A stretch of DNA of 64,000 bases from an uncultured archaeon (lineage in GTDB: Archaea > Thermoplasmatota > Thermoplasmata > Thermoplasmatales > Thermoplasmataceae): assembly GCA_000965745.1 (NCBI GenBank), contig CP009479.1:1498457-1562456 (forward strand), given 5' to 3'. Shown piece by piece: positions 38,078 to 53,213 of the stretch (positions are counted from its first letter, which is position 1; each line of letters begins with the position of its first letter). A program made the translations under genes and the position numbers. The notes under the pieces are model-generated. The model made no database searches. It saw nothing but the letters and a program-made list of their open reading frames with translations, and was not told the DNA's origin.

Positions 38078-39163
38078 TCAAGCTACAAAATCAAGATCAT
38101 CTTCGGGCTTGGTTGCCTGGCCGCCCCTGCCTTTGTTGTACTCAGATGCGAGCCCTGTTGCTACAATCAGTATCTCAACCTGTCCTTCGTAGCTGTCATC
38201 TATGTTTGCACCCCAGATGATCTTTGTATTCTTCCCCACTCTTTTCTGAACTTCCTCTGCGGCATTGTTGGCCTCCTGAAGCTGCAAATCCCTTCCTCCT
38301 TTAACATTGACAATAACTCCGGTTGCAGTGGACATGTCCATCTGGAGAAAAGGTGAATTGACGGCCTTGTCAACGGCATCTATTATTCTTGTTTCCTCGC
38401 CCTCCTTGGAAACGCCAATGCCGATCATAGCCACCCCGGAATTCTGCATTATCGTTTTGAGATCGTTGAAGTCGAGGTTAATCAGGCCAGGATTGGTTAC
38501 CAAATCGGTTAGCCCAACGATTGCCTTTACGATGATTTCATCGGCATACTTGAAAGCCTTTTCAAGTGGTAGATCTGGCACAAGTTCCAGTAACTTGTCG
38601 TTTGGAATTATGATGACTGTATCTGAGGAATTGATCAGCTTGTTCAGGCCCCAGTCTGCGTTCTGCTTCCTCACAACGCCTTCAGATTTGAACGGAAGGG
38701 TAACGACCCCTATTGTGAGAGCACCAAGGTTCCTGGCTATTCTTGCAATGTAATGGGCTGACCCAGTGCCGGTGCCTCCTCCTAGGCCTGCTGTAATGAA
38801 CATGATATCACTCCCGCTCACATATTTTAGTATTTCCTGTTCAGACTCCCTTGCAGCTTCTTCGCCTATCTTGGGGTCTGCCCCAGAGCCAAGACCTCGC
38901 GTAAGGTTCTTTCCAAGCAGTATTTTATTGTGGGACCTTATTCTTAACAGGTGTGGCGCATCAGTATTGCAGGCGATAAGCCTGGCCTCTTTAATGCCTT
39001 CTTTCATGAGTCGGCTGATGCTGTTTGATCCGGCTCCTCCTGCCCCAAAAATCTTGATGTGTACTTTCAGTCTCTCAATAACACTGAGGAGTTCGTCATC
39101 TGATGTCCTTGCCACATCATCTTGTTCATGAAACTGGAATCCATAGTCAGAGCCGCTGTCCAT
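38078..39163 (-). CDS. ftsZ: Cell division protein FtsZ
   Basis: About 361 aa, tubulin-like GTPase forming the division ring. GTP-binding motifs: IKIFGAGGAGSNSISRL near residue 35, LGGGTGTGSAHYIARIA near 110 (tubulin signature), and LPFKSEGVVRKQNADWGL with the T6 region. The T7 loop is NLDFNDLKTIMQNSGVAMIGIG. I choose the Met at 39163 (MDSGSDYGF), since the upstream 23 residues to 39232 lack family similarity. The C-terminal tail is short. Compare the degenerate paralogue at 51126. Confidence 0.95.
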   Translation of the reverse strand: MDSGSDYGFQFHEQDDVARTSDDELLSVIERLKVHIKIFGAGGAGSNSISRLMKEGIKEARLIACNTDAPHLLRIRSHNKILLGKNLTRGLGSGADPKIGEEAARESEQEILKYVSGSDIMFITAGLGGGTGTGSAHYIARIARNLGALTIGVVTLPFKSEGVVRKQNADWGLNKLINSSDTVIIIPNDKLLELVPDLPLEKAFKYADEIIVKAIVGLTDLVTNPGLINLDFNDLKTIMQNSGVAMIGIGVSKEGEETRIIDAVDKAVNSPFLQMDMSTATGVIVNVKGGRDLQLQEANNAAEEVQKRVGKNTKIIWGANIDDSYEGQVEILIVATGLASEYNKGRGGQATKPEDDLDFVA

Positions 39164-39267
39164 TTGCACGCAGCTTAATAATGGAAGCCACATTATTAAT
39201 TCTTTTGCGTAAGGTGAAATAGACGCCCGCAATAAAAATTAGTGTTTCTGGAAAAATGTTTTATTAT

Positions 39268-49674: not shown

Positions 49675-50595
49675 ATGTTAAAAAACAAGAGCGTTGTTTC
49701 CATCGATGACGTTTCGGATGAGGATATACTTGAGGTTTTCAAGGTAAGTGACCAGATGTCAAAACTAATCTCGGAAGGGAAAAAATCAGAAATTCTTTCA
49801 TCCAGAATCATGGCAACATTCTTTTACGAGCCCAGCACACGAACTCGACTCTCCTTTGAAAGCGCCATGCACCGGCTGGGAGGGTCGGTGATCAGTGTTT
49901 CTGAAGCGTCATCGTCATCTGTTGCAAAGGGGGAAACCCTTGCAGATACAATTCGAATGGCGGATGCTTATTCTGATGTGATTGTGATAAGGCATCCGCT
50001 TGAGGGTTCCGCAAGGCTTGCCTCAAAGTTTTCCTCAAAGCCGGTGGTCAACGCAGGCGACGGCGCAGGACAGCATCCAACGCAGACTTTGCTTGACCTT
50101 TACACTATCAAGAAGGAGTTCGGAAAGCTGGATGGGCTGAAGATATCAATGGTGGGTGACCTGAAGTATGGCCGGACAGTACACTCATTGATAAGGGCGC
50201 TTAGCAGGTTTGACGTTGAAATAAACCTCATTTCCCCCTCAATTCTGCGTATTCCTCAGCACGTTATGTCCAGGTTGCCAGCGAGAACAAAAATTACAAT
50301 ATCGGATAACATTGAGGAAGACATTGAGAATTCTGACGTCTTCTACGTGACAAGAATACAGAAAGAGAGGTTTACTGACCAGAATGAATACAGGAGTGTT
50401 ATCGGGTCATATTCAATCGATGGTGGGCTTGCTGGAAAGATGAAGAAGAATGCTATCCTGATGCATCCGCTCCCAAGGATTGATGAAATTGCCCCTGAGG
50501 TTGACTATATGCCACAGGCCAGATACTTCAAGGAGGCAGCAAATGGAATACCGGTTAGGATGGCGCTTCTATCCATGATACTGGGGGGAGAGTAA
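49675..50595 (+). CDS. pyrB: Aspartate carbamoyltransferase, catalytic subunit
   Basis: 306 aa. Condenses carbamoyl phosphate and aspartate in pyrimidine synthesis. Carbamoyl-phosphate site [16 protein letters not shown] at residues 50-65, with S-T-R-T-R at 54-58; [20 protein letters not shown]-type segment ([15 protein letters not shown]) near 135. The aspartate site is [10 protein letters not shown], and [10 protein letters not shown] is near 263. Its stop overlaps the pyrI start. Confidence 0.96.
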
Positions 50596-51059
50596 TGGTA
50601 GATAAGACTTTAAAAATATCAAAAATCAAGGACGGCACCGTCATTGACCACATTCCTGCAGGCAAAGCGCTTAAGGTGCTCAATATCCTCAACATAAGTG
50701 AGGATGTAAGCTCGTCGGTAAGCATAGGCATACATGTCCCGAGCGGTAAGTTTGGCTACAAGGATGTGATCAAAATAGAAAACAGGTTCCTCGAAAAAAT
50801 TGAGCTTGATATGATTTCACTTATCGCCCCTGAAGCTTCAATCAGTATTGTAACAGACTACTCCATCAAGGAAAAGTTCAACGTTGAACTTCCGCAGACG
50901 CTTCTTGGCCTGATCAACTGCGCAAACCAGAACTGTATTACCAACGGGAATGAGCCAGTAAAGAGTGAATTTGAAACAATATCAAGAAACCCGATCAGTG
51001 TCAGGTGCAGGTACTGTGAGAGGGAAATGAACTATAAGGAAATTCAAGCAAGCATGTGA
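50595..51059 (+). CDS. pyrI: Aspartate carbamoyltransferase, regulatory subunit
   Basis: 154 aa. Allosteric subunit that binds CTP/ATP and holds the catalytic trimers together. The N-terminal allosteric domain has [19 protein letters not shown]. The C-terminal zinc domain uses four cysteines in CANQNC and CRYCE, near residues 113-140. ATG overlaps the last base of pyrB, giving coupled expression. Confidence 0.95.
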
Positions 51060-51125: not shown

Positions 51126-51884
51126 CTATGAGGCCAGAATCTGCATTTTAAGAAGGTTAGCCTTGGCTGCCAGTTTTCTTGAAAACTCATTCACCCTTTT
51201 TGCCACCATCTGGTAGAACTCCCCTGAGAGGTATTCTCTTGAAGACGCGTATGAATCCTCAATGAACGTCACAACTCCTGCTCCCTTCTCTTTCAGTTCG
51301 TCCAGCCCGGAATTTACCATTTCAAGATTGCTAAAGGCCAGGTTTTTTGGAATTGTTACAACATTCAGGTGAGGAATGCCTTTCTTGGAGAGTAGGCTTG
51401 AGAGTGATATGTGCATTCTTTGCGATAGCATCTCTCCAAAATTGCTGAGCAGGATAAATGAAGATGAATTGCTTGTTGAGGATAGAATTTTAGCAGAAGT
51501 AGCGTCCGGGTTGAGATTGAATTCCTTCTCGTCAACGTTGAGCTTCCCAATGGTGTGATCGCCTGCTATGAAGTCCAGTGCAACTTTTCCACCCATGGAG
51601 GACGAACTGAGGCTTCTCACGTATTCCATGTGGTCCAACTCGTCCTTGAATGTGTGGATTAGCTTCCTCCCGACCAGCGACACTATGTTGCCTTTGGCAA
51701 TTCCTTCTCCACTCTCAACCGATATCAGTTCAGTACCCATAACTGCCCTTGAAGCCAGTCTGGAAATTACGTTCTTCCCAGATTTTCCGAAGGCAATGAT
51801 GGAATTGTCTTTTCTTCCAGAATAATACTCAGATGCTGCGTTCAGGCAGTCATCCCTAATTGTCTCGCTCCAACCAACCAACAT
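51126..51884 (-). CDS. Divergent FtsZ/tubulin-like protein
   Basis: 252 aa. The segment AFGKSGKNVISRLASRAV near residue 32 aligns with the FtsZ loop G-x-G-G-x-G-x-N-x-V-x-R-L seen at 39163. LSNFGEMLSQRMHISLSSLL falls where FtsZ has its GGGTGTG tubulin signature, and GIPHLNVVTIPKNLAFSNLE fits the ALTIGVVTLPF strand. The GTP-binding glycines are largely missing, so it probably does not hydrolyse GTP normally. It lacks the C-terminal FtsZ domain. It may be a division- or shape-related regulator. It lies just downstream of a ribbon-helix-helix gene. Confidence 0.6.
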   Translation of the reverse strand: MLVGWSETIRDDCLNAASEYYSGRKDNSIIAFGKSGKNVISRLASRAVMGTELISVESGEGIAKGNIVSLVGRKLIHTFKDELDHMEYVRSLSSSSMGGKVALDFIAGDHTIGKLNVDEKEFNLNPDATSAKILSSTSNSSSFILLSNFGEMLSQRMHISLSSLLSKKGIPHLNVVTIPKNLAFSNLEMVNSGLDELKEKGAGVVTFIEDSYASSREYLSGEFYQMVAKRVNEFSRKLAAKANLLKMQILAS

Positions 51885-51899
51885 TTTGAATCACCCAGA

Positions 51900-52295
51900 T
51901 TAAATCTCATTTTCTTTTGTAAGGTCAAAATTTTCAAGATCATACATCTCTCTCTGTATATTCTTGTACTGCTCCACTTTTTCCCTGATGATCTTTGTTA
52001 CCAGGCCATTAATCATTGCCTGGTTTGCTATATCAACAATTGCGTCTTCTATTGAGTAGAAGAACCCTTTGTCTTTTGCGCTTTGAAGGGTTTTCAGAAG
52101 AACTTTGTCTATCTTCAGGTTAATTCCGGAGGTGTCTAATATCCCGACTCTGAGCTGTGTCATGAGTTCCACCGCAGCATGCCTCATAAACTCTGATCTG
52201 CTGCCGAACCTCTGGTTTTTTTCAAGAAAACTGTCTATCTCCATTAGATCGTCTTCCGAAATTCTCAATGTAATCTTTGTATCTCTCTGACTCAA
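51900..52295 (-). CDS. Ribbon-helix-helix regulator (CdrS/CdrL-like by context)
   Basis: 131 aa. KITLRISEDDLMEIDSFLEK and RFGSRSEFMRHAAVELM form a classical N-terminal RHH domain. The rest is helical (DKVLLKTLQSAKDKGFFYSI, EKVEQYKNIQREMYDLEN) and may dimerise. It precedes the FtsZ-like gene by 15 bases on the same strand. In haloarchaea, RHH proteins of the CdrS/CdrL group are encoded with ftsZ and control division genes. The similar arrangement suggests, but does not prove, the same role. Confidence 0.72.
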   Translation of the reverse strand: MSQRDTKITLRISEDDLMEIDSFLEKNQRFGSRSEFMRHAAVELMTQLRVGILDTSGINLKIDKVLLKTLQSAKDKGFFYSIEDAIVDIANQAMINGLVTKIIREKVEQYKNIQREMYDLENFDLTKENEI

Positions 52296-52592
52296 GTGTG
52301 CTTTGACCTCTAAGTTTAATCTTAAGGTATATATATAAAGCTTTTTACGATGTAAGACAAATTAAATATTGATACTTTTAAATATATTTTTAAATATGTA
52401 CCAATAATCTAATTCTTTAGCAGATTATACTAAGTCATGGTATAAACAGATATGTCTTCTTTATTAAATTTCGTCTGACGTTGTATATCTTTATAATACG
52501 TATAAAATTAAATTAACACCCACACTTGCTTTCTCACCACTTCCATTCAGCTCTATTGGTAAGGTTATTAAAGGCGCCTCGAATTTGGACGC
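52296..52592. other. AT-rich divergent promoter region
   Basis: About 297 bases, unusually A/T-rich, with TATATATAAAG near 52330 serving the minus-strand RHH gene. Several TTTAAATATATTTTTAAATATG-type words lie in the middle, and AT boxes near 52490-52510 come before aIF2-beta. No gene. The richness in A and T exceeds that of other gaps here. Confidence 0.5.
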
Positions 52593-53213
52593 ATGGCACA
52601 GAATGAATATGAAGAGCTGCTGAATCGAGCGAGCGGCATATTTTCAAAATCCACTCAAAGTGAGGCAAGATTAAAGATTCCTGATCCCGACATAATAAGG
52701 GAGGGAAAGTCGACAATTGTGAGGAACTTCCAGGATATTGCTGATATGATAAACCGAGATCCAAAGCATATTTCTAAATTTCTGATGAAGGAATTTGGTA
52801 TCGGAGTAACAATATCTGGAAGGCGGCTAATAATAAACAGGAAGGTCACCTATGAGCAGATTTCAAGCAAGATAAGCCAGTACATCGATTCGTATGTCAA
52901 CTGTTACGAATGCGGCTCCCCTGATACTGAATTCCTCAAGGTTGGAAGAACGAATCTTCTTTCATGCAAGGCCTGTGGCGCCCAGCACCCGATAAAGCTT
53001 GCGAGAGAATCAAGGTTTGAAGAAACTCAGCTTGAAGAGGGCAAACAGTACGTGGTCGAGATAACGGAAAAAGGAAGTTCAGGGGAAGGAAGGGCGATGT
53101 TCAGGGGCTACAGCCTTTTTGTCCCGGGGGCAAAGAAGGGTGAAACCGTCAAGGTACTAATAAAAAGGATCAAGCGGGGAATGGCTATAGCTGAGGTTGT
53201 TGACAAGGAATAG
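52593..53213 (+). CDS. Translation initiation factor aIF2 beta with TRAM domain
   Basis: 206 aa. Part of the aIF2 heterotrimer that delivers Met-tRNAi to the ribosome. The helical lead and IF2B/IF5 core (TIVRNFQDIADMINRDPKHI, FLMKEFGIG) are followed by the zinc ribbon CYECGSPDTE...CKACGAQHP. A C-terminal TRAM domain of about 60 residues (EEGKQYVVEITEKGSSGEGR, LFVPGAKKGETVKVLI) is fused, a feature of Thermoplasmata and some other archaea. It may bind RNA. The TAG stop is followed in frame by a PIN-domain coding region. Confidence 0.93.
   Translation: MAQNEYEELLNRASGIFSKSTQSEARLKIPDPDIIREGKSTIVRNFQDIADMINRDPKHISKFLMKEFGIGVTISGRRLIINRKVTYEQISSKISQYIDSYVNCYECGSPDTEFLKVGRTNLLSCKACGAQHPIKLARESRFEETQLEEGKQYVVEITEKGSSGEGRAMFRGYSLFVPGAKKGETVKVLIKRIKRGMAIAEVVDKE

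Follow-up and report, generated by a model that had tools for sequence, protein, structure and literature searches.

A tandem ribbon-helix-helix regulator gene and an FtsZ-like partner gene form a conserved operon in the Thermoplasmata

Results

A conserved gene pair

The genes for a tandem ribbon-helix-helix (RHH) regulator and an FtsZ-like protein form a conserved operon across the Thermoplasmata. We examined the pair in a 64,000-nucleotide stretch (hereafter the window) of the genome of an uncultured member of the Thermoplasmataceae (family f1). We take f1 to be the family of Thermoplasma, since named loci retrieved with its profile include some from Thermoplasma sp. and from Thermoplasmata MAGs. 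Here the RHH gene (51900..52295, minus strand), with a TTG start and a product of 131 amino acids, lies 15 nucleotides upstream of the gene for a 252-residue protein that we call FtsZL (51126..51884, minus strand). The original prediction, made from the letters of the DNA, had named a 252-residue protein 15 bases behind an RHH regulator; both open reading frames and the gap are present, and the KITLRIS strand and the helices of the 131-residue protein agree with the RHH call. Upstream of the operon is a divergent aIF2-beta-like gene (52593..53213, plus strand), and on the other side a convergent gene for a PyrI-like aspartate carbamoyltransferase regulatory chain (50595..51059, plus strand), both named from our own reading of the sequence. 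Most f1 relatives keep the aIF2-beta-like gene on the one side and PyrI/PyrB-like genes on the other. The genome, a single contig of 2.23 Mb, also contains two canonical FtsZ genes, and the one that lies in the window (38078..39232, minus strand) is full-length, with T4 GLGGGTGTG and T7 LINLDFNDLK, and has neither an adjoining RHH gene nor the operator motif described below ahead of it.

Similarity to FtsZL identified loci with an RHH gene directly upstream in families f3, f4, f5, f8, f9, f10, f11, f13, and f25. A reciprocal test from the RHH side, carried out in 20 genomes of 19 families, all outside f1, found an FtsZ-like gene as the next gene in 20 of 20, so that the conservation of the pair extends to the class. 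The RHH profile detected a protein in 150 of 150 Thermoplasmata genomes and in 76 of 77 from f1, a profile that, having been built from FtsZL-linked RHHs, selects orthologues by design. The impression from a first profile search that FtsZL is missing in many genera of Thermoplasmataceae proved wrong, as in g3, g12, and g8 the RHH gene is followed by a copy that has diverged strongly.

Several other loci came to light in these searches. In G129 a second, very divergent RHH and FtsZ-like pair (L097, 3706-4822, minus strand), whose RHH-like gene falls below the profile threshold and which forms the longest branch of the tree described below, accompanies a standard pair (L098). Family f5 has a different short FtsZ-like family of 260 residues with a GLGG... 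loop (L090, 3847-4626, plus strand; L092, 3688-4467, minus strand), located next to a tRNA-methyltransferase-like gene and without an RHH neighbor. An extra RHH gene is found upstream of the pair in families f56 and f63 (L228, 3394-3801, minus strand; L229, 3409-3801, minus strand). Finally, the same-order relatives f3, f4, and f5 encode 4-8 PF00091 proteins per genome, more than the window's family, and the Thermoplasmata seem to be rich in undescribed FtsZ paralogues.

FtsZL is predicted to have the tubulin/FtsZ GTPase fold

As a single query the FtsZL of the window gave no match in searches of Pfam (PF00091 included), NCBIfam, or the PDB. A single-sequence search found FtsZL in 26 of 61 relatives, and only family profiles were informative about its kinship. 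Thirteen of 19 members of the family matched PF00091 (best 1.2e-8), and the family profile found FtsZ chains in the PDB at about 2e-7 (2.2e-7). When aligned by hhalign with canonical FtsZ from the sampled genomes, the family gave 6.5e-8 over 168 columns, in agreement with the original prediction of an FtsZ-like protein. An AlphaFold2 (AF2) model built from a 21-row alignment had a mean pLDDT of 75, the core reaching about 85-93 and an insert at residues 61-108 staying below 50. This insert, between S2 and S3 (window 51561-51704, minus strand), is poorly aligned and has no confident fold. In a Foldseek search of the PDB with the model, the best 50 matches listed were all FtsZ, PhuZ, or CetZ (the best at E 8.8e-6, probability 1.00), CetZ 3zid being just one among many, and the tubulin fold anticipated at the outset is thus present in the model. 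The TM-scores of these matches were only about 0.45-0.5, which we attribute in part to the insert and to the two-domain nature of the targets. Together, profile and model support the assignment of FtsZL to the tubulin/FtsZ GTPase fold.

What remains of the nucleotide-binding loops differs between the window and its relatives. Aligned relatives display T1-like SFGxAGxR, T4-like SGFGGxFAQxxH, T5-like KPSxxExxRR, and T6-like VYDNDxL segments, whereas the protein of the window has FGKSGKN at T1, SNFGEML at T4, and FIEDSY at T6, all of them degenerate. The guanine-contacting asparagine of T6 (YDN in most relatives) is lost in the window (FIEDS). Alignment with the relatives confirmed that SNFGEML occupies the position of the GGGTGTG loop, as first proposed; most f1 relatives have SGFGGxFAQxxH there, and GGGTGTG itself is kept in several other families. 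The chain of the window stops after helix H7, and it therefore has neither the C-terminal domain of FtsZ nor its T7 loop (NxDxxD). The view of the protein as a GTP-loop mutant of FtsZ accordingly holds for the missing glycines, but what carries the substitution is a single-domain protein of a class-wide operon.

The regulator is a duplicated RHH protein

The RHH protein of the window consists of two RHH units and a C-terminal helix. The two halves of the chain evidently arose by duplication: aligned with each other by hhalign, they gave an E value of 1e-8 and a score of 42.4, where 200 column shuffles reached no more than 12.8. Matches of the window RHH to the NCBIfam models of CdrS (0.013) and aCcr1 (0.01) were both far below the cut-off; with the CdrS model (NF058555) it scored 15.5 bits and the best of the proteins scanned (L074) 56 bits, where at least 100 bits are required. 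Among named proteins, CdrS is nonetheless the closest to the RHH of several families outside f1, with a match of 2.4e-15 in two stretches in L074, in which Pfam and NCBIfam together likewise mark two RHH stretches. The AF2 model of the RHH protein (pTM 0.40) was left out of the fold search.

A paralogous second tandem RHH of about 100-110 residues is conserved in f1 directly upstream of a pheT-like gene (by our own reading, phenylalanyl-tRNA synthetase beta), with no FtsZ-like gene beside it (L177, 3709-4035, minus strand, in the window's genome C1:2112217-2112519; also L178, L179, L180, and L181).

Progressive erosion of the FtsZ partner

Across the class the FtsZ partners can be arranged in five stages. 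At the first, a tandem RHH is followed by a full-length FtsZ with GMGGGTGTG and the T7 sequence NIDFAD intact (f50 and f55; L231 and L230); at the second, in f4, f8 (L080), and f63, the FtsZ is of the longer kind and T7 is lost. Many families represent a third stage, with the GTPase domain only and GTP loops that are intact or nearly so, and the Thermoplasmataceae, including the window, a fourth, with the GTPase domain only and degenerate loops. At the fifth, in genera that have no FtsZ, a stub of about 160 residues stands behind the RHH. T7 was absent from 18 of 20 RHH-linked FtsZ-like proteins (one or two sampled per family). Most RHH-linked FtsZs outside f1 have in common [DE]N at T6 in place of the PN of canonical FtsZ, a pattern that the YDN of the Thermoplasmataceae fits. 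A tree of 63 sequences placed all canonical FtsZs in a single clan, supported at 99/99, and every RHH-linked FtsZ outside it; because of long branches, the branching order among the RHH-linked FtsZs is unsafe. We take an RHH with a complete FtsZ, as in f50 and f55 and in the haloarchaeal cdrS-ftsZ2 locus, to be the probable ancestral state.

Purifying selection, and persistence in genera without FtsZ

Where it could be computed in close pairs, dN/dS was 0.02-0.09 for f1 FtsZL; the strongly diverged copies of g12 gave 0.13 and the stubs 0.09-0.18. dS was saturated in some pairs, and the values come from relatives of the window gene, whose genus is represented by one genome. Open reading frames were intact in the family members found. 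As purifying selection was evident at every degenerate stage tested, FtsZL does not appear to be decaying.

Most genomes with a member of the FtsZL family also have one or two canonical FtsZs. In three f1 genera (g9, g18, and g19), however, there was no PF00091 match at all, and here the RHH gene is followed, at the operon position of FtsZL, by an overlapping gene for the stub. We infer that these genera are Picrophilus, Acidiplasma, and Ferroplasma, which have been reported to be without FtsZ (PMC10936438); the absence may go back to a single loss. Comparison of the stub with the FtsZL family by hhalign gave a score of 27.3 over 132 collinear columns (P 0.0019, probability 14.5), the maximum in 200 shuffles being 21.1. 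Since a comparison of the stub profile with the profile of the diverged FtsZLs (g3/g12/g8) was negative, the case for homology is drawn from the broad family profile and from synteny, and it is with moderate confidence that we regard the stub, from the hhalign result and its identical operon position, as a probable remnant of FtsZL. The idea that the RHH-FtsZL pair needs FtsZ was discarded, as RHH and stub are present in genera that lack it.

A putative operator at the operon's own promoter

Ahead of the RHH gene in the window is the sequence TGTCTTACA (52351..52359, minus strand), about 20 bp upstream of the archaeal TATA box of the operon, CTTTATATATATA (52328..52340, minus strand). The family consensus, TGTN3TACA, occurs at this position, roughly 20 bp ahead of the TATA box, in 19 of 29 f1 promoters (21 sites against 1.6 expected), and half-sites of the form GTATGAC/GTCATAC occur at the RHH promoters of other families (18 against 0.6 expected). 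From its place and its conservation in relatives, we consider TGTN3TACA a putative operator for the tandem RHH. A search of 77 genomes for TGTN3TACA-N8-12-TATA returned 51 matches, 28 of which were the promoter of the RHH-FtsZL operon. The 23 elsewhere were no excess over the 26 matches of a reversed control pattern, and we therefore set aside the idea of a wider RHH regulon detectable by motif and TATA box. The motif was found at none of 16 ftsZ promoters.

Discussion

How might the pair work? We propose that the tandem RHH recognizes half-sites of the operator next to the TATA box of its operon, which it would control in this way, and that FtsZL, having ceased to form filaments, would partner the RHH as co-regulator or sensor and alter RHH binding. 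Members with intact GTP loops may respond to GTP or to contact with the open end of an FtsZ filament; the signal in the window's family probably does not involve a nucleotide; and in species that lost FtsZ only the part that contacts the RHH, the stub, would have been retained. The contact between the two proteins, the binding to DNA, and the effect on transcription are proposals read from sequence. As a whole, a self-regulated derivative of the cdrS-ftsZ2 locus in which FtsZ has turned into a non-polymerizing partner of the RHH is our best explanation, to which we give a little less than an even chance. The broader claim, that a protein of the tubulin superfamily was domesticated class-wide as a non-polymerizing co-regulator of the tandem RHH and outlived FtsZ in lineages that lost it, is a tentative one that we judge plausible without expecting it to hold.

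The main rival is that FtsZL is a division regulator that acts on FtsZ itself, with one filament face but no T7 face, capping or poisoning protofilaments at a dose set by the RHH. A protein that keeps the GTPase domain but has lost T7 and the C-terminal domain is just what a one-sided capper should look like, most genomes with the family offer canonical FtsZ as a target (the window itself contains one such gene), and an action of FtsZL on FtsZ would lead one to expect a shared operon just as well. Moreover, in Haloferax overexpression of cdrS inhibits division and overexpression of cdrS-ftsZ2 stimulates it (PMC8406309). But capping, although it explains well the loss of the T7 face, does not explain why RHH and stub are under purifying selection in genomes without FtsZ, a persistence that argues against capping as the only job, and the window's family has eroded loops (T1-T6) at the longitudinal interface. 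We consider it unlikely as a general account, though both it and the RHH-partner reading could be true in different lineages. The original prediction of a division regulator stands in its anatomy, an RHH with a pseudo-FtsZ partner and a parallel in CdrS and FtsZ; the role that it assigned in division is weakened by the same persistence and by the lack of the motif at the 16 sampled ftsZ promoters.

A persisting pair would also suit a sensor of nucleotides or metabolites that serves growth control and not division in particular, its descent from FtsZ being incidental; the position between aIF2-beta and PyrI/PyrB genes and the paralogous tandem RHH upstream of pheT point the same way. Against this, the neighbors differ in other families of Thermoplasmata, so that the link to translation is not conserved beyond f1, and the nucleotide loops of the window are degenerate, and we regard such a sensor as improbable. 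Gene order, with the RHH upstream and an overlap or short gap, and the operator motif at the pair's own promoter recall a toxin-antitoxin-like module of an RHH antitoxin and an FtsZ-derived poison. The presence of the RHH in every genome of the class sampled, and of the pair at fixed loci within families, is neither a mobile nor a patchy distribution, however, and makes this very improbable. As for a decaying FtsZ pseudogene, which motif loss and truncation might suggest, the dN/dS of the relatives (0.02-0.18 in every close pair computable) and their intact reading frames lead us to reject it as scarcely credible.

If the RHH-partner reading is true, FtsZL would be a clear example of the tubulin fold in a protein that forms no filament. 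Across the class the FtsZ partner loses the parts needed for filaments, then the GTP loops, and finally part of the fold, all the while under selection, a series in which the regulatory and the cytoskeletal contributions of the partner come apart and which suggests that a component of the cytoskeleton was turned into part of a gene-control switch.

Comparison with known systems

Pairs of RHH and FtsZ genes are known as archaeal division regulators. The closest likeness is to cdrS-ftsZ2 of Haloarchaea and other Euryarchaeota, in which an RHH gene likewise lies immediately upstream of a gene of the FtsZ superfamily in one operon (PMC7439475, PMC8406309). The RHH described here is, however, tandem and of 120-140 residues, whereas CdrS has about 61; its partner is an FtsZ-like protein without C-terminal domain or T7 and, in the window, with degenerate GTP loops; and the operator motif appears to be confined to the operon's own promoter, whereas CdrS binds 18 sites, ftsZ1 among them (PMC7439475, PMC8406309). 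Synteny of cdrS-ftsZ2 has been reported across archaea; we found in the paper concerned no reference to Thermoplasma or its class and no mention of a truncated FtsZ. CdrL of Haloarchaea is also an RHH, and the promoter of the cdrS-ftsZ2 operon is reported to be essentially its only target (PMC7439475), but it is a separate gene with a zinc-ribbon C-terminus where the second half of the protein here is another RHH. Another archaeal RHH regulator, and a weak NCBIfam match (0.01), is the Sulfolobus cell-cycle repressor aCcr1, whose model is a single RHH of 38 residues. We know of no FtsZ partner for aCcr1.

With the FtsZ/tubulin superfamily (FtsZ, CetZ, TubZ, PhuZ) FtsZL shares the N-terminal nucleotide-binding fold, the order from S1 to H7, and T1/T5/T6-like segments; it differs in being a single domain, without the C-terminal domain or T7 and with the T4 glycine loop replaced, and from CetZ in having 252 residues in that one domain where CetZ is full-length with two. 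FtsZl1 and FtsZl2 (Makarova and Koonin 2010, PMC2875224) are, like FtsZL, divergent FtsZ-superfamily paralogues beside canonical FtsZ, and FtsZl1 too has no recognizable C-terminal FtsZ elements; that paper does not mention Thermoplasma. We nevertheless rejected membership of FtsZL in these groups, as it has no Tubulin_2 (PF13809) match and its neighbors are RHH, aIF2-beta, and PyrI, not vWA. Our search of the openly available literature turned up no account of a single-domain FtsZ linked to an RHH. We file the pair as a variant of the RHH-FtsZ gene pair, and not as a member of FtsZ (TIGR00065 / PF00091 + PF12327) or CdrS (NF058555).
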